Source of the DNA: Cohnella panacarvi Gsoil 349
GTDB taxonomy: Bacteria; Bacillota; Bacilli; Paenibacillales; Paenibacillaceae
DNA length: 64,000 bases
Assembly: GCF_000515335.1 (NCBI RefSeq)
Contig: NZ_KI911563.1
Coordinates: 3,748,869 to 3,812,868, forward strand
Direction of reading: 5' to 3'
Positions 6,319 to 63,664 of this stretch are shown piece by piece. Every line of letters starts with the position of its first letter. Position 1 is the stretch's first letter. Made by a program: the position numbers and the translations under genes. The notes under the pieces were generated by a model. That model worked only from the letters and a program-made list of their open reading frames with translations, did no database searches and was not told where the DNA came from.

Positions 6319-6342
6319 ATTTACACGGGCGGAGGAACATTC

Positions 6343-7941
6343 ATGGAAATCGATGTGACGAATGCCATTCTGGGCGGAAGAACGGTGCTCGGAATCGAGT
6401 TTGGCTCGACCCGAATCAAAGCGGTGCTCATCGGCGAAGACAACGCGCCTATCGCTTCCGGCAGCCATGATTGGGAGAATCAGTACGTCGACAATATTTG
6501 GACGTACAGCTTGTCTAGCATCTGGAAGGGCGTGCAAGAAAGCTATCGCGCGATGGCAGATGACGTGAAACGTCAATACGGCGTTCCCTTGCAGAAGATC
6601 GGCGCCATCGGCTTTAGCGGCATGATGCACGGCTACATGGCCTTCAACCAAGAAGGTGAACTGCTCGTTCCTTTCCGCACTTGGAGGAACAACATTACCG
6701 AGCAAGCCTCTGCGGAACTGAGCAAGCTGTTCGATTTCCATATTCCTCAACGTTGGAGCATCGCTCATTTGTATCAAGCGATCTTGAACGGGGAAGCGCA
6801 TGTCGCGGATATTCGTTTCCAGACGACGCTCGCCGGATATATTCATTGGCAATTGACGGGGCAGAAGGTGCTCGGGGTCGGCGAAGCGTCCGGCATGTTC
6901 CCGATCGATATCCATACGCGGACTTACGACGCATCGATGATTCGGCAATTCAACGAGCGGGTTGCCGCCGGCAACTTCTCGTGGAAGCTCGAGGATATTC
7001 TTCCGCGGGTGTTGGTTGCGGGCGAGAATGCCGGCGTGCTCACCGAAGAAGGGGCAAGGCTCCTGGACGTTACCGGAACGTTGCAGCCCGGCATTCCGTT
7101 CTGCCCGCCCGAGGGAGACGCGGGGACGGGCATGGTCGCGACGAACAGCGTAGCGAAGCGAACCGGCAACGTGTCCGCCGGAACTTCGGTATTCGCCATG
7201 GTCGTCCTCGAGCGACAATTGTCCAAAGCCTACGACGAGATCGATCTCGTGACGACGCCGACGGGCAGCCTCGTCGCGATGGCTCACTCCAATAACTGCT
7301 CCTCGGACCTGAACGCTTGGGTAGGCTTGTTCGACGAGTTCGCCAAGGCGATGGGACTAAGCGCAGACGCCGACAAGCTCTACGGAACGCTATATAATCT
7401 GGCGCTTCAAGGCGACCCGGACGGCGGCGGATTGCTGGCGTACGGGTACCTATCCGGCGAGCATATGACCCATTTCGAAGAGGGACGTCCTTTGTTCGTT
7501 CGTTCCCCGGGAAGCAACTTTAACTTGGCCAACTTCATGCGGGTTCATCTGTTTACCGCTTTGGGCGCGCTCAAGATCGGCATGGACATCCTGCTTAAGC
7601 AGGAAAAGGTTAAACTGGACGAGATCCTGGGCCACGGCGGCTTGTTCAAGACCGCGGGCGTAGGACAGAAGATTATGGCCGCCGCTCTTAACGTTCCGGT
7701 GTCCGTCATGGATACGGCGGGCGAAGGCGGCGCCTGGGGCATCGCCCTTCTGGCGTCGTATATGATGAATCGGTCGGAAGGCGAAACGTTGGAAGCGTAT
7801 CTCGGAGACAATGTTTTCGCGGGGAAAGCCGGCTCCAGGGTTGCTCCCGATGCCGTGGACGTGGAGGGCTTCGAAGCCTTCATGGAACGGTATACGAAGG
7901 GACTTGCCATCGAGAGAGCGGCCGTGGAGCATCTCGTATAG
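6343..7941 (+). CDS. FGGY-family carbohydrate kinase, probable L-ribulokinase (AraK type)
   Basis: 532 residues; GGAGGA lies ahead of the ATG. The N-terminal phosphate-binding motif [14 protein letters not shown], the segment [12 protein letters not shown], and the C-terminal [25 protein letters not shown] are FGGY kinase signatures. The sequence looks closer to the xylulokinase-like ribulokinases (AraK) described in clostridia than to classical AraB. Since araD, under an AraR operator, lies directly upstream, phosphorylation of L-ribulose is the likely role. No araA isomerase gene is present in the window. A terminator follows. Confidence 0.85.
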
Positions 7942-36735: not shown

Positions 36736-36874
36736 AAGATCCGAATGATATCCAATAATGGTGGAACAATAGCCAACAGCAGTGCCCTTATCTCGAGCAG
36801 AAGGCAATGATACACTGAATATCGAAGGAAAGCGCATTCAATTCCTTTACAATCGATACAGGGGGTTTTCGTTC

Positions 36875-50916: not shown

Positions 50917-51288
50917 TTATTCGTCCATATTCCGTTCGGCCCGAATGAAAGCGATGAATCTTCTGGCCTCGGCCGGAGTCAATTTGCGTCCGTCGATCGT
51001 CAGCGAGAACTTCTCCAGCAGCTCGTTGTTGGAGAGCTCAAGCTCGTCAGTGAACTGTCTGACGTCCGGGTCCAAGGTTGTCGTAGGCTGGGACGTTCTG
51101 CCCGCCAAGTAATCGAGAGAGACGTGGAACAGATCCGCTACCTTGGATAAGGTCTCGGTATCGGGCTCCCTGCGATTTTTCTCGTAATGCGATAACGCCG
51201 CTCGCGAGATTCCGAGGGAAGTAGCTAGTTCTTCTTGTGTGAGTCCGCGCTGATCCCGTAGGAACGCGATACGGTTACCGATGTTCAT
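50917..51288 (-). CDS. SinR/Xre-like HTH repressor, candidate master regulator of the EPS region
   Basis: 123 residues from the ATG at 51288, with GGGAGGG 6 bp upstream. Residues 1-62 form an XRE/cI-type helix-turn-helix (IGNRIAFLRDQRGLTQEELATSLGISRAALSHYEKNRREPDTETLSKVADLFHVSLDYLAGR in sequence terms: helix 2 LTQEELATSLG, recognition helix SRAALSHYEK). The C-terminal ~55 residues (ELELSNNELLEKFSL, LTPAEARRFIAFIRAER) are helical and may mediate oligomerisation. The gene is divergent from the PilZ-LCP operon, whose promoter carries two 15-bp dyads, and a variant dyad lies in front of this gene. Repression of the neighbouring operons is inference. Confidence 0.88.
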   Translation of the reverse strand: MNIGNRIAFLRDQRGLTQEELATSLGISRAALSHYEKNRREPDTETLSKVADLFHVSLDYLAGRTSQPTTTLDPDVRQFTDELELSNNELLEKFSLTIDGRKLTPAEARRFIAFIRAERNMDE

Positions 51289-51351: not shown

Positions 51352-51370
51352 TTGCGACAAAATGTCGCAA
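51352..51370. promoter_or_regulatory. Variant dyad operator in front of the XRE gene
   Basis: TTGCGACAAAATGTCGCAA is a perfect 8+3+8 palindrome. Its centre ACAAAATGT is identical to that of the operator at 51446, but AT is replaced by CG in both arms (GCGACA-AAA-TGTCGC). It lies 64 bp upstream of the XRE start codon and 76 bp before the next dyad. Confidence 0.7.
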
Positions 51371-51438: not shown

Positions 51439-51467
51439 TTGACTTGATACAAAATGTATCGTAGAGT
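51439..51467 (+). promoter_or_regulatory. Promoter of the PilZ-LCP operon
   Basis: TTGACT (51439-51444), 17-bp spacer, TAGAGT (51462-51467). The spacer holds the 15-bp dyad at 51446-51460. Confidence 0.7.
51446..51460. promoter_or_regulatory. 15-bp dyad operator, PilZ-LCP site 1
   Basis: GATACAAAATGTATC, perfect 6+3+6 dyad, entirely inside the -35/-10 spacer. Confidence 0.8.
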
Positions 51468-51481
51468 AGAGGGTAGTTGCT

Positions 51482-51496
51482 GATACATATTGTATC
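51482..51496. promoter_or_regulatory. 15-bp dyad operator, PilZ-LCP site 2
   Basis: GATACATATTGTATC, perfect dyad, centred 36 bp downstream of site 1, just after the expected transcription start. TGATACATATTGTATCTTA (51481-51499) is identical over 19 bp to the EPS operon operator at 57278-57296. Confidence 0.85.
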
Positions 51497-51514
51497 TTAA
51501 GGCCTGGTGATCCT

Positions 51515-51973
51515 ATGGATTCGGATGAACCGTTCAATCGCCGCAAGTATATTCGATTCGGGTTATACGCTCCATTATATGCGGAGCTGTCATTGCATCG
51601 TGTCGGCGCGCAATACCGAAGGAGCCGATCGGCGATCGTATTGCTGGATAATATCAGCTTCGGCGGTTGTCTGTTCCGAACGAATCTGATCATTCCGCCC
51701 CGAGAGGACGTGGAGTGGTTGTTAAGGCTTCGATTCGGACGGTACGCGATGCATGCGAAAGCGATCGTCGTTCGTTCGGGCGATGAGGAAGGGTATAACC
51801 TGTACGGCGCGAAGTGGAAGCTCTCCGCTTACGAACGCCACCTTTTCCAATATCGTCTGAATGAGTACTTGCAGGCGACTTACGTCTTCGCGCCGCATAT
51901 TCAGACGTTATATCGACAAGTGATGGAACGCACCGCCGATCAGCAATTCAAGAAATTCGACATCATCTCTTGA
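51515..51973 (+). CDS. PilZ-domain protein (probable c-di-GMP receptor)
   Basis: 152 residues; GGTGAT lies 6 bp before the ATG. The two PilZ signature motifs are intact: RxxxR as R10-KYI-R14 and NxSxxG as N46-I-S48-F-G-G51. The remaining beta-barrel pattern (VEWLLRLRFGRYAMHAKAIVVRSGDEEGYNLYGAKW) fits. PilZ domains bind cyclic di-GMP and pass the signal to partner proteins, often for exopolysaccharide production. There is no second domain, but the C-terminal ~45 residues are helical. It is co-transcribed with the LCP gene (20-bp gap) under two operators. Confidence 0.85.
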   Translation: MDSDEPFNRRKYIRFGLYAPLYAELSLHRVGAQYRRSRSAIVLLDNISFGGCLFRTNLIIPPREDVEWLLRLRFGRYAMHAKAIVVRSGDEEGYNLYGAKWKLSAYERHLFQYRLNEYLQATYVFAPHIQTLYRQVMERTADQQFKKFDIIS

Positions 51974-51992
51974 AGCCTTGGGGGTATTCGTA

Positions 51993-53063
51993 TTGAGACG
52001 CTCTAAATGGATGAGAATCAGCCTCTATACGCTCCTTGCGTGTGTCGTCATCGTTGCTGCAGGGGCCGGTTTGGCGTGGTATAAGCTGGAGAATACGATC
52101 AATGCCATGTATGAGCCGTTGCCGAGCACGGAGTGGACGCAGCCCGTATTCGAGCAGGAGACCGCGCAAGAGGACGTACCCGGACGGCAATCGGATCCAG
52201 AGGAGGAGAAGGAAGCGGAGGACGTCGATGAGGGGAGAGGCAAAGTCGTCAAAGCCGTGCAGGCGACCGGCGACGAGAAGCTTACCGACGAAGAGGTCGA
52301 CCGCTTGCTGCACCCGAATCTGGACCGGAAGGACCCGTTCTGCATCCTCTTGCTCGGAGTAGATGAGCGGCCGTCGGATCGCGGGCGCAGCGATACGATG
52401 ATTCTGCTGTCGATTCAGCCTGCCAAGCATTCGGCGCTCGCGATTTCCATACCGCGCGACACGAGGGTGCTTATCCCGGAACGGGAAGCTTACGACAAAA
52501 TCAATCATGCGTACGCGTTCGGAGGCACGGCGCTTTCGGTAGCGACGGTCGAGAGACTGTTCGGCGTACCGATCGCCTACTATATGAAGACGAATATGGA
52601 GGGCATCGTCGATATCGTCGATACGGTAGGGGGCGTGGACGTAGACAATGCTCGGCCATTCACCTATGAAGGCGTTACGTTCCCTAAGGGCGAGCAGCGC
52701 TTGGACGGCGCGAACGCCCTGCTGTACGTGCGGATGCGCAAGGAGGATCCGAGCGGCGACTTCGGCCGCACGCAGCGGCAACGCCAGCTGCTGTCCGCCA
52801 TTATCGATCGCGTCGTCAGCTTCCGTTCGCTCGGCAAGCTGCCGCATATTCTGTCCAAGCTGTCGGAGGACGTCAGGACGAACCTGACATCGGGCGATCT
52901 GTTCGATCTGGCGACCGAGTACAAGTCCGAGATCAAGCAGATCGATACGTTGTACTTGAACGGTACGGGCCGAATGATGGACGGCATCTATTACTACTCG
53001 GTTCAGCCGAAGGACCGGGCGAAGATACAGCAGCAGCTGTTGTCGCATCTCAGAGGGGCGTAA
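51993..53063 (+). CDS. LytR-CpsA-Psr (LCP) family glycopolymer transferase
   Basis: 356 residues from the TTG at 51993 (GGGGGT 9 bp upstream; the TTG at 51978 lies inside that site). One N-terminal membrane helix (ISLYTLLACVVIVAAGAGLAWY), an acidic low-complexity linker (~50-75, QSDPEEEKEAEDVDEG), then the LCP domain: LLLGVDERPSDRGRSDTMILLSI, ISIPRDTRV, KINHAYAFGG, VDTVGGVDVDN, and RMRKEDPSGDFGRTQRQRQLL with the conserved Arg residues. LCP enzymes attach teichoic acids or capsular polymers from lipid carriers to peptidoglycan. Linking it to the EPS operon by shared operators fits that role. Confidence 0.92.
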   Translation: MRRSKWMRISLYTLLACVVIVAAGAGLAWYKLENTINAMYEPLPSTEWTQPVFEQETAQEDVPGRQSDPEEEKEAEDVDEGRGKVVKAVQATGDEKLTDEEVDRLLHPNLDRKDPFCILLLGVDERPSDRGRSDTMILLSIQPAKHSALAISIPRDTRVLIPEREAYDKINHAYAFGGTALSVATVERLFGVPIAYYMKTNMEGIVDIVDTVGGVDVDNARPFTYEGVTFPKGEQRLDGANALLYVRMRKEDPSGDFGRTQRQRQLLSAIIDRVVSFRSLGKLPHILSKLSEDVRTNLTSGDLFDLATEYKSEIKQIDTLYLNGTGRMMDGIYYYSVQPKDRAKIQQQLLSHLRGA

Positions 53064-53086
53064 ATCAGCACTTTCTGACAAATTCC

Positions 53087-53115
53087 TTGACAAGGGCAGG
53101 AAACTGCCCTATCTT
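53087..53115 (+). promoter_or_regulatory. Promoter of the Cys-rich microprotein gene
   Basis: TTGACA (53087-53092), 17-bp spacer, TATCTT (53110-53115). Confidence 0.65.
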
Positions 53116-53123
53116 TATTTTAT

Positions 53124-53158
53124 GATACACAATGTATACACATGAGACAATTTGTATG
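53124..53158. promoter_or_regulatory. Two dyad operators downstream of the microprotein promoter
   Basis: GATACACAATGTATA (53124-53138, one mismatch to GATACA-N3-TGTATC) and GAGACAATTTGTATG (53144-53158, two mismatches), centred 20 bp apart, just after the expected start of transcription. Confidence 0.65.
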
Positions 53159-53174
53159 AATTGGAGAGAGAATC

Positions 53175-53318
53175 ATGGACCATTCCGTATTGTTTTACTG
53201 CCTCGTGTGCAACAAGCTGAAAACGATGGAGCAAGCGAACTGTCTTTTCCGGACCGGATACTATAAAGCGCTGCATCCGCTCGGTTGCTGCGTCAATTGC
53301 GAATGGCGGGCAAAATAA
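53175..53318 (+). CDS. 47-residue Cys-rich microprotein, zinc-ribbon-like
   Basis: The protein starts MDHSVLFYCLVCNKLKTMEQ and ends PLGCCVNCEWRAK. Cysteines are arranged C-x2-C (residues 9 and 12) and C-C-x2-C (38, 39, 42), with one more at 23. This is a treble-clef/zinc-ribbon-like spacing. GGAGAGAG lies 5 bp before the ATG. The gene has its own consensus promoter with two operator dyads, so it is clearly a regulated gene despite its size. It is too short for normal ORF calling. Function unknown; it could be a small regulatory or metal-binding adaptor. Confidence 0.7.
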   Translation: MDHSVLFYCLVCNKLKTMEQANCLFRTGYYKALHPLGCCVNCEWRAK

Positions 53319-53400
53319 AATTTGCCTAAATAAGGTATGTAGCTGAACCTTAGATTGGTATAATGAGGGTGCTTTGCAATTGATCTACGGAGGGAAGCTC

Positions 53401-54327
53401 ATGTCACTCGCACCTGTCGTTCGCTTGGATAACGTCACGAAAGTGATCGGCAAACGAACGATTATCGACCGGGTATCCTTTGACGTATACCCGGGGGAAG
53501 TGTTCGGATTTCTCGGTCCGAACGGATCGGGCAAGACGACGACGATCCGCATGATGGTCGGATTAATGGCTCTGACGTCGGGAGACATCCAGATCGAAGG
53601 CCATAGCGTGAAGACCGATTTTCCGAAGGCGATCGTCCATGTCGGCGCCATCGTCGAAAATCCGGAAATGTATAAATTCCTGACGGGTTATCAGAACTTG
53701 CTCCATTACGCGCGGATGAATCCGGCGGTAACGAAAGAAAGAATCCAAGAGGTTATCGAGCTTGTCGGACTTCAGGACCGCATTCACGACAAGGTAAAGA
53801 AGTATTCGCTCGGCATGCGCCAGCGGCTTGGCGTCGCGCAAGCGATGATGCACCGCCCGAAGCTTCTCGTGCTTGACGAGCCGACGAACGGACTGGACCC
53901 CGCGGGAATCCGCGAGCTAAGGGATTATTTGCGCAAGATCGCGCAAGACGAAAGCGTGGCCGTGCTCGTATCGTCTCACTTGCTGTCCGAGATGGAGCTG
54001 ATGTGCGATCGCGTCGCCATTCTTCAGAAGGGCCAGATCATCGACGTCCGGTCGATCCGCGGCGACGACGCGGCCGTACATACGCAGGCCGATAACGAGG
54101 TGTTGTTCGAAGTCGATCATCCCGATGCGGCGCTCGGCGTACTGGAAGGTTCGTACGGCGCTAGGATTGCGGACGGATTGCTATCGATTAAGGCGGACCG
54201 CAGTTCGGTTGCGGCAACGAACCGCAGACTCGTGGAAGCGGGGATTAACGTCTACGGCATTCGCGTGAAGACGAAGACGTTGGAAGACCAATTCCTTGAA
54301 ATGACGGGAAGTGAACACATTGGCTAA
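53401..54327 (+). CDS. ABC transporter ATP-binding protein (ABC-2 type exporter)
   Basis: 308 residues from the ATG at 53401 (GGAGGG upstream). Walker A is FLGPNGSGKTT, signature YSLGMRQRLGVAQAM, Walker B LLVLDEPTNGLDP, and the switch His is in LVSSHLLSEMEL. The C-terminal ~80 residues are the usual extension of BcrA/NatA-type exporters. A strong extended -10 (TGGTATAAT, ending at 53364) lies upstream. No GATACA-type dyad precedes it, so it is not obviously part of the neighbouring regulon. It is co-transcribed with the permease gene. Confidence 0.92.
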   Translation: MSLAPVVRLDNVTKVIGKRTIIDRVSFDVYPGEVFGFLGPNGSGKTTTIRMMVGLMALTSGDIQIEGHSVKTDFPKAIVHVGAIVENPEMYKFLTGYQNLLHYARMNPAVTKERIQEVIELVGLQDRIHDKVKKYSLGMRQRLGVAQAMMHRPKLLVLDEPTNGLDPAGIRELRDYLRKIAQDESVAVLVSSHLLSEMELMCDRVAILQKGQIIDVRSIRGDDAAVHTQADNEVLFEVDHPDAALGVLEGSYGARIADGLLSIKADRSSVAATNRRLVEAGINVYGIRVKTKTLEDQFLEMTGSEHIG

Positions 54328-55132
54328 CTTCGTGAAGCTCGTACAGAACGAGAATATGAAAATCTATCGCAGAGTCGGAACCTGGGTGATGCTCGGCATA
54401 TTGATTCTTCTTCCGATATTGGTGTCGACGCTCCTCTATTTCGCCGGTCAGGATGACGGCAGTAAAGTAACGGGCTTCGAGATGATGCAGGTCGACGCGA
54501 TATTCGCGTTCATGCTCGTGACGATTTTCTCGGTCATCATTGCTTCGGGGTCGGTGGCGAGCGAATTCTCATGGGGCACGATTAAACTGTTGCTCATTCG
54601 TCCATGGAGCCGCACCAGCATTCTGCTCTCTAAATTTATCGCGCTCGTGCTGTTCTTGCTATTAACCTCGATCATCGCTTATTTGACCTGTTTCTTCGTC
54701 AATCTCGCTTTCTTCGGCGCGACGAACGCGGTCGACGAGGTGATCCCCGAGTTGAACGCGGGCGCGGGCGTCATGTTCAGGGAACTGGGCGAATTCGTGT
54801 GGACGGAGTTCGTGGCCACACTCGTCATTGCCTCGTTCTCCTTCATGCTGTCCGCGGCGCTGCGCAGCAACGGTCTGGCGATCGGGTTGTCGCTCGCCAT
54901 CGTGTTCCTGTCGGATGCGTTCGCGAGCCTGTTCCTGATGATCGATCAGCCGTGGATCAAATTCGTGTTGTTCCTTAACCTGGACTTGATGCAATTCATG
55001 AACGGGCATACGGGACCGATCGATGACGATCCGATGTCGCTTGGCTTCGCAGTCGGCGTACTGGCCGCATACTTCGTTATTTTCAACGCCATCTCGTTAT
55101 TGGTATTCCGCAAACGGGATGTAGCCGCTTAA
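54320..55132 (+). CDS. ABC-2 type transporter permease
   Basis: 270 residues from the TTG at 54320, with GGAAGTG upstream; a GTG at 54311 is possible. Six hydrophobic segments are visible (WVMLGILILLPILVSTLLYF, AFMLVTIFSVIIASGSV, FIALVLFLLLTSIIAYLTCFFV, FVATLVIASFSFMLSAAL, LAIGLSLAIVFLSDAFASLFLM, LAAYFVIFNAISLLVF). The segment VASEFSWGTIKLLLIRPWSR is typical of ABC-2 permeases. It overlaps the ATPase gene by 8 bp. The exported compound is unknown. A strong terminator follows. Confidence 0.9.
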   Translation: MANFVKLVQNENMKIYRRVGTWVMLGILILLPILVSTLLYFAGQDDGSKVTGFEMMQVDAIFAFMLVTIFSVIIASGSVASEFSWGTIKLLLIRPWSRTSILLSKFIALVLFLLLTSIIAYLTCFFVNLAFFGATNAVDEVIPELNAGAGVMFRELGEFVWTEFVATLVIASFSFMLSAALRSNGLAIGLSLAIVFLSDAFASLFLMIDQPWIKFVLFLNLDLMQFMNGHTGPIDDDPMSLGFAVGVLAAYFVIFNAISLLVFRKRDVAA

Positions 55133-55145
55133 TGCAGTTAAACGA

Positions 55146-55192
55146 ATAGCCTTCGCCTAAAGACGTTATGTCGGATAGGCGAAGGCTATTTT
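55146..55192 (+). terminator. Terminator of the ABC-2 operon
   Basis: ATAGCCTTCGCCTA (55146-55159) pairs perfectly with 55176-55189, followed by T's. Confidence 0.9.
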
Positions 55193-55220
55193 GTTTATTG
55201 GCGAACTTTGTCCAGAAGGG

Positions 55221-55249
55221 TTGACCTGCTCATAATTGTATCATAAGAT
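55221..55249 (+). promoter_or_regulatory. Promoter of the FemAB/CelD-like gene
   Basis: TTGACC (55221-55226), 17-bp spacer, TAAGAT (55244-55249). Confidence 0.65.
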
Positions 55250-55265
55250 AGATACAATACGTATC
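55235..55265. promoter_or_regulatory. Dyad operator(s) at the FemAB/CelD-like promoter
   Basis: GATACAATACGTATC (55251-55265) has one mismatch to GATACA-N3-TGTATC. A further half-site TGTATC (55237-55242) forms ATTGTATC-N8-GATACAAT with it. The sites flank the -10 box and the start. Confidence 0.65.
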
Positions 55266-55277
55266 ATTTGGGAAAGG

Positions 55278-56249
55278 GTGGTCAGCCTGAATAGCAAGAG
55301 TAAGTACAGGGAGCTGTGCAAGGTCAGCAACGATATTCCGATCTTCTCTATGGATTGGTGGCTCGACATTACGGCGGGTGATTCCAATTGGGATGTCAGC
55401 GTGGTGGAAAGCGGAGGAGAGATTATCGCCAGCCTTCCCTATTACCGGTTTAAAAAGTACGGTCTCGAGATGATTCGAATGCCGAAGTTGACTCCAGCGA
55501 TGGGCGTATGGATTCGTTATCCCAGCGATCAGAAATATGCGACCAGGTTGGCGTATGAAAAGGAGACCTTCACGAAGCTCATCGACCAATTGCCAGAATT
55601 CGACTCCTTTTATCAACACTTCTACTGGACGATAACGAATTGGATGCCGTTTCATTGGAAGGGATTCACTCAGAGCACGGACTATACATATCTGTTGGAG
55701 GATTTAAGCGACCTAGACGCGGTGTTCGCCGGATTCAGGGAGAATATCCGTCGGGAAATCCGTAAGGCTCAGAAGCAGTTGACGGTAGAGCGATCGGAAG
55801 ATATTGCAAAGTTCTACGAGATCCAGAGTAAAACCTATCAGCGTCAGAACCTGAAGATGCCCTACTCCTTCGAATTTCTGAAAAAGCTGGACGATGCATG
55901 CAAACGCCGAAGCTGTCGTGCGATGTGGTTCGCTGCCGATTCCTTAGGACAAGTACACAGCGTCATGTATGTCGTATGGGATTCCAAATACGTGTACTAT
56001 CTCATGGGGGGCGGAGACCCCTTGTTGCGAACAAGCGGCGCCATGTCGCTGTTAATGTGGCGGGCGATCCAGGAAGCGTCGGGACTTTCGCGGCAATTCG
56101 ACTTCGTGGGCAGCATGTACGAATCGATCGACAGGTTCTTTAGAGGATTCGGAGCAGTACAGAAGCCCTATTTTCAATTATCCAAGACAAACGGAAAGTT
56201 AATGAAAATGGTTTTGCTGGCGAAGGATGCATATCGGATCTTTCGTTAA
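55278..56249 (+). CDS. GNAT-fold acyltransferase, FemAB/CelD-like
   Basis: 323 residues if started at the GTG at 55278; the CTG at 55287 is also possible, and no ATG fits near the promoter. The protein has the double-GNAT pattern of the FemAB/BioF2-like (CelD) acetyltransferases linked to polysaccharide loci: FSMDWWLDITAG at the N-terminus, FRENIRREIRKAQKQLTVERS in the middle, and SGAMSLLMWRAIQEASGLSRQFDFVGSMYESIDRFFRGFGA near the end. It may modify a glycan or nucleotide sugar with an acyl or aminoacyl group. It is a single-gene unit with its own operator-bearing promoter. Confidence 0.82.
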   Translation: MVSLNSKSKYRELCKVSNDIPIFSMDWWLDITAGDSNWDVSVVESGGEIIASLPYYRFKKYGLEMIRMPKLTPAMGVWIRYPSDQKYATRLAYEKETFTKLIDQLPEFDSFYQHFYWTITNWMPFHWKGFTQSTDYTYLLEDLSDLDAVFAGFRENIRREIRKAQKQLTVERSEDIAKFYEIQSKTYQRQNLKMPYSFEFLKKLDDACKRRSCRAMWFAADSLGQVHSVMYVVWDSKYVYYLMGGGDPLLRTSGAMSLLMWRAIQEASGLSRQFDFVGSMYESIDRFFRGFGAVQKPYFQLSKTNGKLMKMVLLAKDAYRIFR

Positions 56250-56300
56250 TTTTATGGCTCCTGTACGAAAGTCCTTCCGTTCAAGGCATTGTACGCATGA

Positions 56301-56336
56301 AAGCAACCGTGTCGCTATGCGGCAGGTTGCTTTTTT
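56301..56336 (+). terminator. Terminator of the FemAB/CelD-like gene
   Basis: AAGCAACC (56301-56308) pairs with GGTTGCTT (56325-56332), with an inner TGTCGC/GCGGCA stem, then T6. Confidence 0.88.
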
Positions 56337-56590
56337 GTCATTTCGGAAAGTATAAGATTTGGGGTTAGAGGCTGCCCTGTTTCAATAGGGTGATGCGGGA
56401 TGAGAACGGGGCGTATAGCGGATGCCCGAGGGGCGTGTTCGTTGGTCCTGGCGTGATAGTCGCTATCGTGTGACCGTGAATACGGACGCACGATAGCGAA
56501 GGAGCGACCCCCACTCTCTCCGCCAACCAATAGAACCTACCTGCGATAGTACAGCTATTTCATAGAACCGGTAGGGTGCTAAATCAATAA

Positions 56591-56718
56591 ATGCAAATGT
56601 GCAGGCGATATCTAGCCGCGTGACTCCATCGAAGGTTTGCAGGACTAATACCTGCATTTTTGCAGGATGAAAAGTTAAACGAGCGATCTCGGGTAGGATT
56701 ACCTGCAGAATTGCAGGT
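56591..56718. repeat. Cluster of TGCA-type palindromes
   Basis: CCTGCA-TTTT-TGCAGG (56651-56666) and CCTGCA-GAAT-TGCAGG (56702-56717) are perfect dyads 51 bp apart. ATGCAAATGTGCAGG (56591-56605) and TTGCAGG near 56637 are partial copies. Confidence 0.6.
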
Positions 56719-56731
56719 GTGGAGCGACGAA

Positions 56732-56988
56732 AGTAGGAGGACAAAGTGTGCGAACCCCCGATGCTACGGCTCAGTAGGAGGACAAAGAGTGCGAACCCCC
56801 GATGGTACGGCTCAGTAGGAGGACAAAGCGTGCGAACCCCCGATGCAGCGACGGAAGTAGGAGGACAAAGCGTGCGAACCCCCGATGCTACGGCTCAGTA
56901 GGAGGACAAAGCGTGCGAACCTCCGATGGTACGGCTCAGTAGGAGGACAAAGAGTGCGAACCCCCGATGCAGCGACGGAAGTAGGAGG
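56732..56988. repeat. 41-bp tandem repeat with 124-bp higher-order unit
   Basis: AGTAGGAGG starts at 56732, 56773, 56814, 56856, 56897, 56938 and 56980 (steps 41, 41, 42, 41, 41, 42). Each unit continues with ACAAAG(C/A/T)GTGCGAACC and CCCGATG. The unit ends follow the order CTACGGCTC, GTACGGCTC, CAGCGACGGA twice, so the array is a duplicated trimer of 124 bp. Units are nearly identical and have no unique spacers. Confidence 0.92.
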
Positions 56989-57104
56989 TCCGTCCATCCT
57001 GCCGCGCTCTGACGTACGCCGCCTTTGGCGCCTAAAGCGCACGCCGGGAGAGCCGAGGAAAAAGATTGGCAACAGTACCTTAATGGTTGAGACGAGCACG
57101 CACG

Positions 57105-57129
57105 ACCGATCCGAGTAGGATCGGTTTTT
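57105..57129 (+). terminator. Orphan terminator upstream of the EPS operon
   Basis: ACCGATCC-GAGTA-GGATCGGT (57105-57125) followed by T's. No gene ends nearby; it may insulate the EPS promoter or end a non-coding transcript. Confidence 0.8.
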
Positions 57130-57140
57130 ATATTATTATA

Positions 57141-57155
57141 GAAACAAAATGTATC
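57141..57155. promoter_or_regulatory. Dyad operator, EPS site 1 (upstream)
   Basis: GAAACAAAATGTATC, one mismatch to GATACA-N3-TGTATC, with the same AAA centre as the PilZ site 1. Confidence 0.6.
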
Positions 57156-57184
57156 AACAAAGAAACGATGCGCCAGCGGTTTCG

Positions 57185-57199
57185 TATACCAAATGTATC
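57185..57199. promoter_or_regulatory. Dyad operator, EPS site 2 (upstream)
   Basis: TATACCAAATGTATC, two mismatches in the left arm; centred 44 bp after site 1. Half-sites TGTATG follow at 57204 and 57227. Confidence 0.5.
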
Positions 57200-57270
57200 A
57201 TTATGTATGCGCTTTATTTAGAAAGATGTATGATTGTCGGGTTTTATTGCATGGAAAGCGAAAAAATGAG

Positions 57271-57300
57271 TTGACAGTGATACATATTGTATCTTATATT
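57271..57300 (+). promoter_or_regulatory. Promoter of the EPS operon
   Basis: TTGACA (57271-57276) and TTATAT (57294-57299, 17-bp spacer) or TATATT (57295-57300, 18-bp). The spacer is filled by a perfect dyad. Confidence 0.75.
57279..57293. promoter_or_regulatory. Dyad operator, EPS site 3 (in promoter)
   Basis: GATACATATTGTATC, perfect 6+3+6 dyad, identical to PilZ-LCP site 2 and 2 bp after the -35 box. Confidence 0.88.
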
Positions 57301-57313
57301 AGAGCTACAAAAT

Positions 57314-57328
57314 GATACATATGGTATC
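57314..57328. promoter_or_regulatory. Dyad operator, EPS site 4 (downstream)
   Basis: GATACATATGGTATC, one mismatch, centred 35 bp after site 3; this copies the 36-bp pairing at the PilZ-LCP promoter. Confidence 0.75.
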
Positions 57329-57353: not shown

Positions 57354-58514
57354 ATGGGTACAAAGAAAAGAATTGGCGTTGTCGGTACGGGACTAATCGG
57401 TCGGGGTCTCATTATGGCCATCGAGAATGATTCGGAGCTTGAAATTTCGAGAATTCTGACCCGGCGAAACATCGAAACGATGCAATCGTTCCCCAGTTCG
57501 ACGGTTCTGACCAATAGCATAGACGAGTTGATCGCGAATTCGGACCTGATCGTGGAATGCAGCGGCGACGTTCTGTACGGAACGGATGTTATCGACCAAG
57601 CCATCCGCGCTTCCCTCCCGGTCGTCACGATGAATACGGAGCTGCAGGTAACGACCGGCTCGTACTTCGCGCGCAGAGGTCTGATTACGGAAGCGGAGGG
57701 CGATCAGCCCGGCTGTATCGCGGCGTTGAGGGAGAACGTTCTGCAGATGGGATTCAACCCTCTCGTATACGGCAACGTCAAAGGGTTTCTGAAGCTGGAT
57801 CCTAGCAGGGAAGAGATGGAGTATTGGTCCGGGCGCAACGGTACGACGCTCGGAATGACGACTTCCTTCACGGACGGGACGAAGGTTCAGATGGAGCAAG
57901 TGCTCGTGGCGAACGGCCTTGGCGCCGGAATCGCCCAGGACGGTCTGCTCGGCGTAGCATGCGAAACGGCTCACGAAGGCGGCGTTCAGATGGCGGAGCA
58001 AGCCAAGAAGGTCGGCGAGCCGCTAAGCGATTACATACTCTCTCCGAAGTCTCCTCCGGGCGTATTCGTAACCGCCGAAATCGATGAGCGGCACAAGGAT
58101 GCGCTTCGGTATTACAAGATGGGGGAAGGGCCTTACTATACGCTGCTCGTGAACTATCATCTCTGCCATCTCGAAATTCTGAAGACGGTTCGTCGAGTGC
58201 TAGCCGGCGGAGGCATCTTGCTGAACAACGGAGAGCATCCAAGAATCAGCGCTGCAGCCGTCGCGAAGAAGGATCTTCATCCCGGAGATACGATCGACAG
58301 AGGAATCGGCAGCTTCGAAGTTAGAGGCGTTGCGGTAGAGATCGCCCGTAATCCGGAACATGTTCCGATCGGATTGTTGTCGCAGGCCGTCATCCGGCGA
58401 CCTGTATCGGCGGGGCAGATTCTCACCTTCGAGGATGTCGAGCTTCCGCCTAGCCTGGCTTTGAACGCATGGTTGGAAATCAGAGAAGGCGCTCTTCATG
58501 CTGTCGCCCAGTAA
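57354..58514 (+). CDS. NAD(P)-dependent oxidoreductase with SAF domain (COG4091-like)
   Basis: 386 residues; AGGAG lies 8 bp before the ATG. The N-terminus is a Rossmann fold (RIGVVGTGLIGRGLIMAIE) similar to homoserine dehydrogenase. The middle region (VTMNTELQVTTGSYFARRG, EGDQPGCIAALRENVLQMGFNPLVYGNVKGFLKLDP) and C-terminal SAF-type segment (AVAKKDLHPGDTIDRGIGSFEVRG, PVSAGQILTFEDVEL) match COG4091 predicted dehydrogenases. It probably oxidises or reduces a small hydroxyacid or branched sugar derivative. It leads the EPS operon, so it may make an unusual precursor; this is inference. Confidence 0.8.
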   Translation: MGTKKRIGVVGTGLIGRGLIMAIENDSELEISRILTRRNIETMQSFPSSTVLTNSIDELIANSDLIVECSGDVLYGTDVIDQAIRASLPVVTMNTELQVTTGSYFARRGLITEAEGDQPGCIAALRENVLQMGFNPLVYGNVKGFLKLDPSREEMEYWSGRNGTTLGMTTSFTDGTKVQMEQVLVANGLGAGIAQDGLLGVACETAHEGGVQMAEQAKKVGEPLSDYILSPKSPPGVFVTAEIDERHKDALRYYKMGEGPYYTLLVNYHLCHLEILKTVRRVLAGGGILLNNGEHPRISAAAVAKKDLHPGDTIDRGIGSFEVRGVAVEIARNPEHVPIGLLSQAVIRRPVSAGQILTFEDVELPPSLALNAWLEIREGALHAVAQ

Positions 58515-58560
58515 CACTGCTTGGACCAATTAACATGCTACCCGTTATGGAGGAGTCGCC

Positions 58561-59451
58561 ATGAAGAAGGTAAGAAAAGCGATCATTCCGGCAGCGGGCC
58601 TCGGCACTCGGTTTCTGCCCGCTACGAAAGCTATGCCGAAGGAAATGCTGCCTATTATCGACAAGCCTACGATTCAATACATCGTGGAAGAAGCCATCGC
58701 GTCGGGCATCGAAGACATTATTATCGTGACGGGCAAAGGAAAACGCGCGATCGAAGATCATTTCGACCATGCGTTCGAGCTCGAGTCTACGCTGACGGAG
58801 AAAGGGAAGCTGAAGCTGCTCGAGGAGGTACGCCGGCCTTCCGGCTTCGACATTCATTATATCCGCCAGAAGGAGCCGAGAGGTCTCGGCCATGCGGTAT
58901 GGTGCGCCAGGCGGTTCATCGGCGACGAACCGTTCGCCGTTCTGCTTGGGGATGATATCGTGCAAGGGGAAGACCCGTGCCTCGGACAGCTCATTCGCCA
59001 GTACGATCGAATGCAGTCTTCCATTATCGGCGTACAGCCGGTTCATGACCAAGAGACGCATCGGTACGGCATCGTCGACGGTTATCAGCGGGAAGACAGT
59101 CTCTATCACGTACGCACGCTTGTGGAGAAGCCGCTGCCCGGTACAGCCCCGTCGAACCTCGCGATTATGGGCCGCTACATCCTCACGCCTGAAATTTTCC
59201 AGATTCTCGAGCATCAGGAGACAGGGGCAGGCGGGGAGATTCAACTTACGGATGCGATTCGCAAGTTGAATGAACTGCAAGACGTATTTGCCTGTCACTT
59301 CGAAGGCGTCAGAAGCGACGTCGGGGAGAAGCTCGGGTTCATCATGACGACGCTGAGGTACGCGCTGCAGAACGACGAGCTTAAACATCCTCTTCTGCAC
59401 GAACTGGAGAACATCTTGAAGCAACAGACCGCATCGCAGGCGATTGTATAA
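58561..59451 (+). CDS. galU: UTP-glucose-1-phosphate uridylyltransferase
   Basis: 296 residues with GGAGG ahead of the ATG. The nucleotidyltransferase motif is [24 protein letters not shown] (residues ~9-32). The uridine and sugar-binding segments [27 protein letters not shown], and [26 protein letters not shown] follow, and [10 protein letters not shown] near residue 225. It makes UDP-glucose, the main donor for exopolysaccharide and glycolipid synthesis, and lies second in the EPS operon. Confidence 0.96.
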
Positions 59452-59480
59452 ACAGAGAGAAAGGGAGAGGAAGAGGAGGC

Positions 59481-60176
59481 ATGCACAACTATTCCGATAA
59501 TAACGAAGCGCTTGTCATGGGAGGGGCCTATTCCGTCGAATCCCCTTATATCGGTATCGCTACGGCAGACCGTGGTTATATCTTCAGAAAAAGATTGTTC
59601 GACGTATTCTTCGCTGCCGCCGGAATTTTGTTCCTCTTGCCTGTCTTCATCATCGTCGCGGCTGTGATCAAAATAACGGAGCCCCGAGGATCCGTGTTCT
59701 TCAAACAAACCAGAATCGGCAAAGACGGCAAGCCGTTCAACATGTATAAGTTCAGGTCAATGGTGGAGAACGCGGAGCAATTGCTGGCGGAGCTGCAACA
59801 CCGGAACGAAATTCAGGGCGCCATGTTCAAGATGAAGTCCGATCCGCGCGTAACGAGGATCGGGAAGCTGATCCGCAAGACGAGTTTGGATGAGTTGCCT
59901 CAATTGTGGAACGTACTGAAGGGCGATATGAGTCTGGTCGGCCCAAGGCCGGGACTGCCGCAGGAGGTGGCCCAATATACGAGCCGCGACCGTCTTCGGT
60001 TACTGGTGCCGCCAGGTTGTACTGGATTGTGGCAGGTGAGCGGAAGAAACGGACTCTCTTTTATGCAAATGGTAGAGATGGATTTGGATTATATTAGCCG
60101 CAGAAGCCTGTTGTTCGATTTGCGGCTTATCTTAAAAACATTCGTCGTTATCGTATATCCGAAAAACGCTTATTGA
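59481..60176 (+). CDS. Undecaprenyl-phosphate sugar phosphotransferase (initiating EPS enzyme)
   Basis: 231 residues; AGAGGAGG precedes the ATG. One membrane segment (~35-58, LFDVFFAAAGILFLLPVFIIVAAVI) is followed by the bacterial sugar-transferase domain: FKQTRIGKDGKPFNMYKFRSM, DPRVTRIGKLIRKTSLDELPQLWNVLKGDMSLVGPRP, and PGCTGLWQVSGRN. It transfers a sugar phosphate from a UDP-sugar to undecaprenyl phosphate and so starts each repeat unit. It is a short, single-helix (EpsL/WcaJ C-terminal) type. Confidence 0.94.
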   Translation: MHNYSDNNEALVMGGAYSVESPYIGIATADRGYIFRKRLFDVFFAAAGILFLLPVFIIVAAVIKITEPRGSVFFKQTRIGKDGKPFNMYKFRSMVENAEQLLAELQHRNEIQGAMFKMKSDPRVTRIGKLIRKTSLDELPQLWNVLKGDMSLVGPRPGLPQEVAQYTSRDRLRLLVPPGCTGLWQVSGRNGLSFMQMVEMDLDYISRRSLLFDLRLILKTFVVIVYPKNAY

Positions 60177-60217
60177 GGCAAGACGATAACAGAATCGAAG
60201 AGAGAAGGTTATAGCCG

Positions 60218-60946
60218 ATGGATCTTAGGAAAATGGCAGGCGTAATCCGCAACAGACTCGGAATGATTTCGGTAATTGTGATCATCTGCTGTCTAGCCGC
60301 CGGATTGTCCACCCAGTACCTGGTCGAGCCGAAATACGAGGCGTCCGTTAAAGTCATGGTCAACAAAACGTCCGACGCCGGAATCACGCTCGATGACGTG
60401 TCGGTGAACGTATTGCTTACCGAGACTTATTTGGAGCTGGCCCAGACAGATGCCGTAATGGGGCAAGTAGCCAGCGAATACCCTGAATTCGGGCTTGATA
60501 GCGGCGATCTGGTAGACAAGGTTCATTTCGCTGCAGCCGACAAGACGCAAGTGATCACCATGACGGTGCGCGACGCGTCTTATAAACGGGCTGCGACGAT
60601 CGTTAATGCGGCAGCTTCGGCGTTGCAGACGAAGGCGTCCGAGATCATGAAGGAAGACAATATTACAATACTCGATCACGCGTCGCTTGATAAAGTGCCG
60701 CCGCCGGTATCGCCAAGCATCGCCATGAACACAACGATCGCATTCATCCTTTCGCTTGCGGTTGCTGTCGCAGTAGCGTTCCTGCTAGAAAATCTTGACG
60801 AAACGATTAGAGACGAAGAGACCGCTAAGAACGTACTCGGCGTACCTTCTTTGGCCTCGATCGGCCGAATCGAGCAAACGAGCAAGCCAGGGAAAACGGC
60901 GGTAAGAAAGGCGAGTGATGGCGTCTATGCCACGGCAAACCAATGA
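60218..60946 (+). CDS. Wzz/EpsA-type chain-length regulator (BY-kinase adaptor)
   Basis: 242 residues. Membrane helices at ~13-33 (LGMISVIVIICCLAAGLSTQYL) and ~170-190 (IAFILSLAVAVAVAFLLEN) flank a helical extracellular part. EPKYEASVKVMVNKTS and the proline-rich PPPVSPSIAMN before helix 2 are typical of Wzz/CpsC proteins. In Firmicutes this membrane protein activates the separate tyrosine kinase encoded next; the coding regions overlap by 29 bp. It controls polymer length and export together with the Wzy polymerase. Confidence 0.92.
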   Translation: MDLRKMAGVIRNRLGMISVIVIICCLAAGLSTQYLVEPKYEASVKVMVNKTSDAGITLDDVSVNVLLTETYLELAQTDAVMGQVASEYPEFGLDSGDLVDKVHFAAADKTQVITMTVRDASYKRAATIVNAAASALQTKASEIMKEDNITILDHASLDKVPPPVSPSIAMNTTIAFILSLAVAVAVAFLLENLDETIRDEETAKNVLGVPSLASIGRIEQTSKPGKTAVRKASDGVYATANQ

Positions 60947-61565
60947 GATTCCGTTAGTGACGATGTCTACTCCGGGGGTATCCGTATCCGAAGCCTTCCG
61001 TTCTTTGCGAACGAATACGCAATACACGCTCGACGGTATAGAGAGTCCCGTCATTGCCGTCACATCAAGCCAACGCTCCGAGGGAAAATCAACGACGTCG
61101 CTTAACTTGGCGGCCGCTTATGCGCAAGAAGGCCGGCGCACGCTATTGATTGACGCTAATCTCCGCAACCCTGTCCTGCACACCGCGTTCGGCATAACGA
61201 ACCGGACGGGTTTAACTCAGGTGCTTGCCGAAGGGACTCCAATCGATACCTGCACGATGCATAGCGGGATTGATCGGCTAAACCTGCTGACTTCCGGGCC
61301 GACTCCTTACAACCCGTCCGAATTGCTGGCGTCCCGCCGAATGGATGAGCTGCTGGAGAATGCCAGAAAGAAGTACGAAATCGTGATCATTGACACGCCT
61401 TCTCTGCTTGAAGTTACCGACTCTCAGCTCATTGCCTCGAAGTGCGATGGCATTCTGCTCGTCATACGCTCCGGCAAAGTGAAGCAATCTGCGGCGGTCA
61501 AGGCGAAAGAGCTGCTCATTCATGTGAAAGCCAACGTTCTGGGCTTCGTGCTGAACGGAGCGTAA
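60918..61565 (+). CDS. CpsD/EpsB-type BY-kinase lacking the C-terminal Tyr cluster
   Basis: 215 residues from the ATG at 60918 (AAAGG 7 bp upstream; GTG 60915 and ATG 60927 are alternatives). Walker A is SSQRSEGKSTTSLNLA, Walker A' is LLIDANLRNP, in which the usual second Asp is Asn, and Walker B is IVIIDTPSLLEV. The protein ends KANVLGFVLNGA: the Tyr-rich tail that normally follows VLNG and is autophosphorylated is absent. It may regulate as an ATPase only, or phosphorylate other targets. Confidence 0.9.
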   Translation: MASMPRQTNEIPLVTMSTPGVSVSEAFRSLRTNTQYTLDGIESPVIAVTSSQRSEGKSTTSLNLAAAYAQEGRRTLLIDANLRNPVLHTAFGITNRTGLTQVLAEGTPIDTCTMHSGIDRLNLLTSGPTPYNPSELLASRRMDELLENARKKYEIVIIDTPSLLEVTDSQLIASKCDGILLVIRSGKVKQSAAVKAKELLIHVKANVLGFVLNGA

Positions 61566-61571
61566 CCGCCT

Positions 61572-62906
61572 ATGTATAGACTTGCGCTTGGTGGATACAG
61601 GACGGGCAATATGACTTCATTATTACTCGTGCTTGTCGCGGTCGGGCTTGGCCTCTCGATTGCTTATCAGCCGCTCTTTACTGCCGCAGCCCTCGTCGGA
61701 ATAGCCGTACTCCTTCTTTCCGTGCTGTCTCCGGAGCGGGTCAGTTATATGCTGCTTGTCTCGTCCGCCATCTCGGTCCAGTATCTCTACGACGGCCAAG
61801 TGCTAGGATTGGATCTGCTATCCCTCCATAAGCTCGGCATTCTGTTGCTCTCCATTCCGGCCGCTTTCCGGTACGGTGTCTACGCGAAGCATGCGATGCC
61901 CGTAGCCGCGCTTGCCGCCATGCTGGGCTTCACTTATTTTCTGGCCGATACGCCTCCGTTGCTTGGCGAGATCGAACCGATTAAATCGTTCATCGGATTG
62001 GCATCGCCGTTCGTGCTGCTTCTGATTCGTTGGCCTAAGAAGACGGCCGCCATGATTGTCAACATTCTCTGTTTCCTGCCGCTTATCAGCGTGCTTGTCG
62101 GTTTCGTATTGGAGGCGGCCGGAATCGGCAGTTTGTTCGTCCAAGAGTTCAACGGCTCCACGCGGTTAACAGGCGCCAATATTCCGGCTCACCTCGCTTT
62201 CCTCGCTTTCATGGCGTTCATGGTTGCGACCATTGAAGCGAAGCGCCGGCCCGATCGGCTAGTCTTCTATTACGCGATGATGTCGGTCAATTTCCTTATT
62301 CTATTGCTGACCGGCACAAGAGGCGCGCTGATTTCGTTAATGCTAATGGTATTTCTGTTCATGTATGACTTGACGAAGCAATTCCTGAAAGGAAAGACGG
62401 CGCTCATCATCCCGTTGATCGGATTTATAGCCGTACTCGTAACGTCCGTGTGGCTGCAGCTTGACAACTTGCAGAAGAGGTCGTTCGAACGGGCGACCGA
62501 AGCGGGAATCGATCTATCCGGACGGCTCGAAGCCTGGCAGTTCTTCCTTAAGGGAGTCAGCGGATCGCCTTGGTTTGGCAAAGGGCTCGGCGCGGTCCTT
62601 GTGGCGAACGACGGAAGCATCTATGAGGGCTTTAACGTGCCGCATAACGAATATATCCGTTTTTATTACGACGGCGGCATCATTGGAGCGATTCTTCTGT
62701 TCGCGGCAATCCTTTACGTATTCAGGAACGTCATACGCGAAACCGCTAAAGAACTGCGGATATTTATGACCGCTTTGATCATCGGTTTTCTAATTTACTC
62801 AATCTCCGACAATACGTTGTCGACCCTGCAATTTATCCTGCCGTTCTGTATTTACCTTAATGCGTCCGGTGCCTTATCGGGGACAGATAAGGAGAAGCCC
62901 GCATGA
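61572..62906 (+). CDS. O-antigen-ligase/Wzy-type EPS polymerase
   Basis: 444 residues with ten or more membrane segments. The O-antigen ligase/polymerase domain appears at ~240-390: LLTGTRGALISLMLMVFLFMY, an external loop with RSFERATEAGIDLSGRLEAWQFFLKGVSGSPWFGKGLGAVL, and the conserved HNEYIRFYYDGGIIGAIL. It should join lipid-linked repeat units outside the membrane. The stop overlaps the next start (ATGA). Confidence 0.9.
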   Translation: MYRLALGGYRTGNMTSLLLVLVAVGLGLSIAYQPLFTAAALVGIAVLLLSVLSPERVSYMLLVSSAISVQYLYDGQVLGLDLLSLHKLGILLLSIPAAFRYGVYAKHAMPVAALAAMLGFTYFLADTPPLLGEIEPIKSFIGLASPFVLLLIRWPKKTAAMIVNILCFLPLISVLVGFVLEAAGIGSLFVQEFNGSTRLTGANIPAHLAFLAFMAFMVATIEAKRRPDRLVFYYAMMSVNFLILLLTGTRGALISLMLMVFLFMYDLTKQFLKGKTALIIPLIGFIAVLVTSVWLQLDNLQKRSFERATEAGIDLSGRLEAWQFFLKGVSGSPWFGKGLGAVLVANDGSIYEGFNVPHNEYIRFYYDGGIIGAILLFAAILYVFRNVIRETAKELRIFMTALIIGFLIYSISDNTLSTLQFILPFCIYLNASGALSGTDKEKPA

Positions 62907-63664
62907 GCAAAGTGAAGCTGTTTAACGTCCTCTTCGACAATTACGATTATGACGACCTACTGGGGTATATCGACCGTACGATTCAATCGGGTAAGCCTTC
63001 TTATATTCTCACTTGCAACGTGGATCATTTAATGAAGCTTCAGAGCGACGCTCATTTCCGGGAAGTATACAACGACGCGGGAGCGATCGTCGCAGACGGG
63101 ATGCCGGTTGTCTGGGCATCCCGTCTGCTGAAGAGGCGGCTGAAGCAACGGGTTGCAGGCGCGGATATCGTCAATGAGCTTGGGAATCGGCTTGCGAAGA
63201 GGGGGTACCGAATTTTCCTTCTCGGGGCTGCCGAGGGGATCGCCGACAGGGCGAGATGTAACCTTGAGGTTAAGATTCCGGGAATCAACGTCGTAGGTAC
63301 CTATTCGCCATCCTACGGATTCGATCGCAATGAAGAAGAATGCGAGAGGATTAATGCGATGCTCCGAATCGCGAAACCTGATATCGTGCTTGTCGGCGCG
63401 GGCGCCCCGAAGCAGGAAAAGTGGATTTACCGCCATTACCGCGAGTATGGCGCGCCGATATCGATTGGCGTAGGCGCAGCCCTGGACTTCATGGCGGGAG
63501 AAATCAAGAGGGCGCCGGTATGGTTTCAACGAACGTCTCTGGAATGGCTGTGGCGATTATTTCAGGAGCCGAAGAGGCTTTGGAGGCGGTACTTGGTAGA
63601 CGATGTGAAGTTCCTGGGCCTACTGATCAGGGAAATGCGAGTCCGGAAGGAGGAGAGCCGATGA
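62903..63664 (+). CDS. WecG/TagA/CpsF family glycosyltransferase (GT26)
   Basis: 253 residues. GT26 signatures: YILTCNVDHLMKLQSD, IVADGMPVVWASRLL, RIFLLGAAEGIADRA, DIVLVGAGAPKQEKWIYRH, SIGVGAALDFMAGEIKRAPVWFQRTSLEWLWRLFQEPKRLWRRYL. Relatives (TagA, WecG) add N-acetylmannosamine(uronate) to a lipid-linked sugar. Here it probably adds an early sugar of the EPS repeat unit. It is translationally coupled on both sides by ATGA overlaps. Confidence 0.94.
   Translation: MSKVKLFNVLFDNYDYDDLLGYIDRTIQSGKPSYILTCNVDHLMKLQSDAHFREVYNDAGAIVADGMPVVWASRLLKRRLKQRVAGADIVNELGNRLAKRGYRIFLLGAAEGIADRARCNLEVKIPGINVVGTYSPSYGFDRNEEECERINAMLRIAKPDIVLVGAGAPKQEKWIYRHYREYGAPISIGVGAALDFMAGEIKRAPVWFQRTSLEWLWRLFQEPKRLWRRYLVDDVKFLGLLIREMRVRKEESR

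Follow-up and report, generated by a model that had tools for sequence, protein, structure and literature searches.

We describe here a repeated regulatory dyad and its putative regulator in a 64,000-nucleotide stretch of Cohnella panacarvi Gsoil 349 (hereafter the window; positions 3748869-3812868 of the 4.77-Mb chromosome). Within the window, copies of the 15-bp dyad GATACA-N3-TGTATC mark four promoters, which precede a PilZ-LCP gene pair, a Cys-rich microprotein, a FemAB-like gene and an exopolysaccharide (EPS) operon, and which lie close to the gene of an XRE-type regulator that we call XRE1 (50917..51288, minus strand). XRE1 is a 123-amino-acid protein of the XRE/HTH_3 type (PF01381, E 7.6e-19, 67.9 bits against a cut-off of 23), its residues 2-119 match PDB entry 9sf2 (E 4e-9), and we propose that it is the cognate repressor of the dyads. 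The gene has its nearest named relatives in Cohnella and adjoins a large open reading frame (ORF) that appears by reading to encode glutamate synthase. Also on the minus strand, the variant dyad TGCGACA-TTT-TGTCGCA (51353..51369) lies ahead of the XRE1 promoter as a candidate autoregulatory site; the other promoters, dyads and genes of the locus are on the plus strand.

The promoter of the PilZ-LCP pair (51439..51467) consists of a -35 box, TTGACT (51439-51444), a perfect dyad that serves as the spacer (51446-51460) and a -10 box, TAGAGT (51462-51467), and it is an exact match to the 29-bp composite described below. A second perfect dyad (51482..51496) is located 36 bp downstream of the first, followed by the genes of a PilZ-domain protein (51515..51973; PF07238, E 5.6e-6, 27.1 bits against a cut-off of 22.5) and a LytR-CpsA-Psr (LCP) protein (51978..53063; PF03816, E 5.1e-48). 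At the microprotein promoter (53087..53115; TTGACA, 17 bp, TATCTT), a dyad with one mismatch lies immediately past the -10 box (53124..53138) and another with two mismatches follows (53144..53158); the Cys-rich protein of 47 amino acids encoded downstream (53175..53318) is DUF3973-like, its score for PF13119 (E 6.8e-4, 20.1 bits) staying under the membership cut-off of 25. The promoter of the FemAB/GNAT-like gene (55221..55249) combines TTGACC, a 17-bp spacer with the half operator TTGTATCA at its end, and TAAGAT; a dyad with one mismatch abuts its -10 box (55251..55265), and the gene itself (55278..56249, start codon uncertain) encodes a FemAB/CelD-like GNAT protein (PF13480, E 2.7e-18). The EPS operon (57354..63664, read from the ORFs as a single operon) is preceded by two upstream dyads, one with one mismatch (57141..57155) and one with two (57185..57199), by a promoter (57271..57300) in which the operator 57279-57293 sits within an 18-bp spacer between TTGACA and TATATT, and by a second promoter dyad with one mismatch (57314..57328), 35 bp downstream of the first. 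Its first genes are assigned by Pfam to a DRL/SAF oxidoreductase, a GalU-type nucleotidyltransferase (58561) and a sugar transferase (59481), and the later ones read from the ORFs as chain-length, tyrosine-kinase, polymerase and TagA-like genes. The interval that separates the FemAB-like gene from the EPS operon also holds a tandem repeat with a 41-bp unit and 5.8 copies (56732-56970).

All nine dyads that an earlier note on this DNA, made from the sequence alone, had assigned to the four promoters were found where it placed them: three are perfect (starting at 51446, 51482 and 57279), four carry one mismatch (53124, 55251, 57141 and 57314) and two carry two (53144 and 57185). When the counts were set against 100 dinucleotide shuffles of the window, 7 dyads with up to one mismatch stood against a shuffle mean of 0.10, and 10 with up to two mismatches against 1.29; none of the 100 shuffles reached either number, while at up to three mismatches the window count was not significant (21 against 16.2, with 16 of 100 shuffles reaching 21). 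The tenth site, at 36809, is the sole additional one in the window and carries two mismatches, so the note was correct in stating that there is no comparable full dyad elsewhere in it. On the scale of the whole genome, for which matches of the reversed dyad pattern served as background, the motif remained rare, with 18 dyads against 4 reversed matches at up to one mismatch, and 7 against 0 without mismatches. Twelve of these 18 dyads, and 5 of the 6 exact composites of the genome, fall within 36.4 kb (3800314-3836690; binomial p 7e-22 for the dyads). The cluster is real, but it does not end at 57328, as the note had it, and runs beyond the window to genome position 3836676 (equal to window position 87808). 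To the right of the window, with gene names assigned by reading, the dyad at 3819673 precedes a glycosyltransferase-like gene, those at 3825011 and 3825046 precede an FAD-oxidoreductase/rmlC-type cluster, and those at 3836578 and 3836676 separate rmlA from a nucleotidyltransferase-ABC-HprK-like cluster. Among the distant dyads, the one at 795752 and the pair at 4339786/4339838 precede two XRE paralogues (XRE2 at genome position 795915 and a second copy at 4339950; L014 2753-3257, L019 3787-4301), and the remaining three are at control level (2286170, by a DUF1256-like ORF; 728581, intergenic; 1845537, inside a gene). The regulon includes the four promoters named at the outset but is larger, and it apparently also takes in the two distant paralogues.

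Similar numbers were obtained for five single-chromosome relatives, in which sites with up to one mismatch and their reversed controls amounted to 23/4, 32/12, 20/5, 21/2 and 25/4. Clustering near XRE1 was judged from two of these genomes and part of a third (G133, G012 and G062), the dyads of G066 and G105 being counted without positions: beside XRE1, a stretch of 47 kb holds 12 of the 32 dyads of G133, and one of 57 kb holds 11 of the 23 of G012. Moreover, 80 named XRE1 loci of Cohnella, Paenibacillus and related bacteria contain 186 dyads with up to one mismatch against a single reversed-control match, of which 167 lie a short way ahead of a called gene start, 3 are intragenic and 16 lie elsewhere. 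A dyad within 400 bp upstream of XRE1 is present in 78 of the 80 loci at up to two mismatches and in 70 at up to one, which confirms the conservation upstream of orthologues. A chance origin of the dyads is ruled out by the window shuffles together with the whole-genome and XRE1-locus controls.

The position of the dyads relative to the promoter elements proved to be equally regular. Among 203 sites with up to one mismatch, drawn from the 80 named loci, the window and 7 stretches of the host genome, TTGAC begins exactly 7 bp ahead of the dyad 69 times, both strands counted, while the next most frequent offset occurs 12 times. In these 69 cases the operator, together with a single flanking base at either end, forms the 17-bp spacer of a 29-bp composite promoter, TTGACA-T-GATACAnnnTGTATC-A-TAnnnT. 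In 32 of the 45 promoters with TTGACnnGATACnnnnnGTATC, a second dyad follows further downstream, 28-40 bp away (33-35 bp in 25 cases), a distance that places it just past the expected transcription start. In the promoters of the microprotein and of the FemAB-like gene, by contrast, the full dyads are located solely past the -10 box. A profile built from 339 sites (up to two mismatches), which is biased toward the search pattern by its selection, shows G1 at 92%, A2/T at 80/17% and A6/G at 76/17%, with T3, A4 and C5 strongly retained. Across 148 genomes of the host's family, the strict composite matches 126 times and its reversed control not once. The promoter architecture put forward in the earlier note holds in most respects: TTGAC-type -35 boxes are present at all four promoters, and 17-bp spacers at three of them, while the EPS promoter reads better with 18 bp (TATATT) than with 17 (TTATAT). 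The placement is also repressor-like, as had been suggested, with main operators between the -35 and -10 boxes or past the start and with near-consensus -35 boxes.

What ties XRE1 to the dyads is that the composite co-occurs with its gene. Matches to XRE1 at E 1e-20 or better occur in 101 of the 148 family genomes (one of them, in G053, is weak, at E 8e-23 and 40% identity) and in 39 of 47 other genomes of the order. The composite is present in 73 of the 101 family genomes with XRE1 and in 0 of the 47 without it (Fisher 3.4e-19; stratified by genus, as a product over mixed genera, p 2.6e-4); in the order outside the family, the corresponding numbers are 28 of 39 and 0 of 8 (p 2.4e-4), and none of the 55 genomes without XRE1 in family and order has the composite. 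This dependence is the strongest evidence that the sites have XRE1 as their probable cognate protein. In an alignment of 45 proteins (XRE1 of the window and 44 of the 80 named orthologues), I-x-RAALSHYEKNRR-x-PD of the recognition-helix region is invariant. The variant dyad, TGCGACA-nnn-TGTCGCA, was found within 300 bp upstream of the XRE1 start (up to four mismatches) in 53 of 81 loci, i.e., the 80 named loci and the window, against 5 of 81 for the reversed control, at least four of the 53 matches being GATACA dyads instead. It has the spacing of the GATACA dyad, with the right half often reading TGTTTCA in relatives, and may serve autoregulation of XRE1.

We also examined the genes behind the sites. 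The 119 dyad-side genes of the named loci (188 found minus 69 XRE1 genes) include, by Pfam, PilZ (15), Wzz (11), ABC (5), NTP_transferase (4), CpsB (3) and CpsD-like AAA_31 (3), whereas in 110 control genes from the same loci (119 drawn minus 9 ORFs of about 1,500 amino acids or more, whose size and place mark them as glutamate synthase) we found sugar transferase (9), AAA_31 (6), Wzz (5), LCP (3), NTP_transferase (3) and CpsB (2), with PilZ outside the first 25 families. Composites proper, with 66 occurrences in 60 loci, yielded 58 called genes (8 occurrences gave none, one gene is counted twice in L210/L238, and a few calls are doubtful short ORFs), among them Wzz (10), XRE-type helix-turn-helix (HTH) proteins (7), sulfotransferase (6), NTP_transf_5 (5), GalU/RmlA type (4), CpsB (4) and PilZ (2). 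In genus g7 (L183, L185, L187, L189, L191 and L194), a second composite stands ahead of a sulfotransferase-like gene, away from XRE1. The DUF3973-like microprotein, searched with our own hidden Markov model, has 31 matches in the window and named loci, 21 of them with a dyad (up to two mismatches) no more than 330 bp upstream, and 27 of 39 when redundant further loci are included. A cluster of an HprK-like kinase, a PqqD-like gene, an ABC transporter and a nucleotidyltransferase, lasso-peptide-like by reading (L018 656-4677, L165), shares a common dyad-rich divergent promoter region with rmlA. As for the PilZ protein of the window, RxxxR and NxSxxG are both present by reading, and both motifs occur in 16 of 49 divergent genes behind dyads of relatives, which were picked by place and size, not by domain. 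The idea that one switch joins cyclic di-GMP (c-di-GMP) sensing, wall-polymer attachment and EPS synthesis is supported as an interpretation, except that its c-di-GMP part is weak, the suggested link depending on the PilZ motifs and not being conserved.

With a probability of about 0.82, we propose that XRE1 has the 15-bp dyad as its operator and, once bound, would keep a surface-polysaccharide regulon silent. The observed basis of this proposal comprises the dyads, their placement in promoters, their conservation and their co-occurrence with XRE1. XRE1 would bind the dyad as a dimer through its invariant recognition helix; since at many sites the operator occupies the stretch that separates the -35 from the -10 box, and a second one frequently follows past the expected transcription start, the bound protein should keep RNA polymerase off the promoter, and the second operator would reinforce the block. 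The silenced set would include the PilZ-LCP pair, the Cys-rich microprotein, the FemAB-like gene and the EPS operon and, beyond the right-hand end of the window, promoters of rml, sugar-modification and glycosyltransferase genes. Release would presumably follow a signal, which might come from the microprotein under the same control, from a protease that attacks the conserved C-terminal domain, or from a ligand.

Several observations weigh against this proposal. The strict composite is missing from 28 of the 101 family genomes with XRE1, and upstream of XRE1 no dyad was found in two of the 80 named loci (L100 and L101). Of the 20 dyads listed for G062 (25 in total), only 2 lie near XRE1, and the chance background at up to one mismatch is sizeable in some genomes, as in G133 (12 reversed matches against 32 dyads). 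Some targets are not clearly of polysaccharide type, namely XRE2 itself and the sulfotransferase-like genes of genus g7. Since the control genes without dyads are also of polysaccharide types, the Pfam enrichment taken alone is weak evidence, and the XRE1 loci are better described as EPS islands in which the dyads favour certain promoters.

The two XRE paralogues themselves offer a rival binder. The promoter of each carries the dyad, that of XRE2 being an exact composite in the host genome as well as in several others, and XRE2, present in 73 of the 148 family genomes, occurs in 54 of the 73 that bear the composite. Nevertheless, it is XRE1 genes that adjoin the dyads, and all 15 genomes of genus g7 have XRE1 and the composite without XRE2 at E 1e-20. 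Genomes with XRE1 only, 19 of 29 of which bear the composite, disfavour XRE2 as the sole regulator, and the lone XRE2-only genome (G046) is without it; that the sites are mainly bound by XRE2 and the second copy, with XRE1 having other targets, appears unlikely to us. If XRE1 is the binding protein, it could in principle activate rather than repress, and the two upstream dyads of the EPS promoter (57141 and 57185) do occupy a region where activators can sit. An operator in the spacer or past the start, however, usually blocks polymerase, and the operator placement together with the near-consensus -35 boxes makes activation very improbable. Finally, the motif is AT-rich and promoter-located, and in view of the reversed background in some genomes the dyads might be taken for an artefact of promoter composition or for RNA hairpins. 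This explanation is scarcely credible: controls of the exact pattern and of the composite give 0 or 1 matches per genome, the XRE1 loci give 1 against 186, the presence of the composite depends on the XRE1 gene, and transcription from a promoter does not include a dyad located in its spacer. Repression by XRE1 remains our preferred explanation, and it would provide Paenibacillus and Cohnella, whose exopolysaccharides are of practical use, with a candidate master EPS regulator and a predicted target list; the operator-as-spacer promoter could in addition be a ready-made regulated part. Among the literature matches listed, as far as their titles and abstract openings go, none describes this operator or regulator in Paenibacillus or Cohnella, and an excerpt of PMC7911366 raises SinR of Bacillus subtilis merely as an idea for further study of EPS-cluster control.

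Comparison with known systems points to repressors of mobile elements as well as to SinR. The best solved-structure match by sequence is ImmR of ICEBs1 (7t8i, HTH part only, E 1.2e-12; profile 3e-16). ImmR serves as the guard of a mobile element and is cleaved by ImmA, while the three Peptidase_M78 matches of our host (at 2.10, 3.56 and 4.41 Mb) are not beside XRE1 at 3.80 Mb, so an M78 antirepressor adjoining XRE1 can be dismissed; the three short loci around these matches contain no dyads at up to two mismatches. With RstR (NF041951, the nearest NCBIfam family), XRE1 scores 67.9 bits, below the curated cut-off of 80. On a viral contig (L240), an exact composite is flanked by a Cro-like gene on one side and, on the other, by the gene of a phage XRE repressor that contains SRARWEHWE (5858-6692; roles by reading), but the region is phage-immunity-like and has no host polysaccharide genes. 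In a collection of 2.9 million viral contigs, this was the sole one found with the exact composite, and a tblastn search with XRE1 as the query returned 383 records from the phage collection, every one below 60% identity, so a phage source of the composite promoter was rejected. The operator consensus of the PBSX repressor Xre of B. subtilis is quoted in an excerpt of PMC4243335 as GATACATTTTGTATC. The window dyad fits this quoted consensus, its perfect copies reading GATACAnnnTGTATC; the likeness seen is one of operators, and Xre controls a defective prophage, whereas XRE1 is a widespread chromosomal gene with sites at polysaccharide promoters, and the genes behind these sites are of EPS and PilZ types rather than prophage genes. 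Possibly, though doubtfully, an ancestral chromosome of the order took over a repressor of the phage-immunity type together with its operator, fused them into promoter spacers, and so gained a master EPS switch that stands in for SinR/SinI in many lineages. Either the switch's own co-regulated Cys-rich microprotein or a protease would then relieve the repression, and a promoter directed antisense over sinR into sinI would, in certain lineages, set this switch above SinR/SinI. In two g16 genomes (L241 1640-1668, L242 2405-2433), a composite is located behind sinR on the opposite strand, directed antisense across sinR into sinI, and this arrangement would link the XRE1-type and the SinR/SinI switches. 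SinR and SinI themselves are ruled out as the switch in our host, whose genome has no match to the SinI domain (PF08671), a B. subtilis positive control being detected; across the family, this domain is anticorrelated with XRE1 (19 of 101 genomes with it against 26 of 47 without, p 1.5e-5, kinship ignored). The SinR box, GTTCTYT, differs from the dyad operator. SinR and XRE1 are nonetheless alike in being XRE-type regulators with EPS genes as targets and share a weak HTH similarity (1b0n, profile E 1.9e-6). Taken together, our results lead us to regard XRE1 as the probable regulator, most likely the repressor, of an order-wide exopolysaccharide regulon, SinR-like in its action but of a different lineage.

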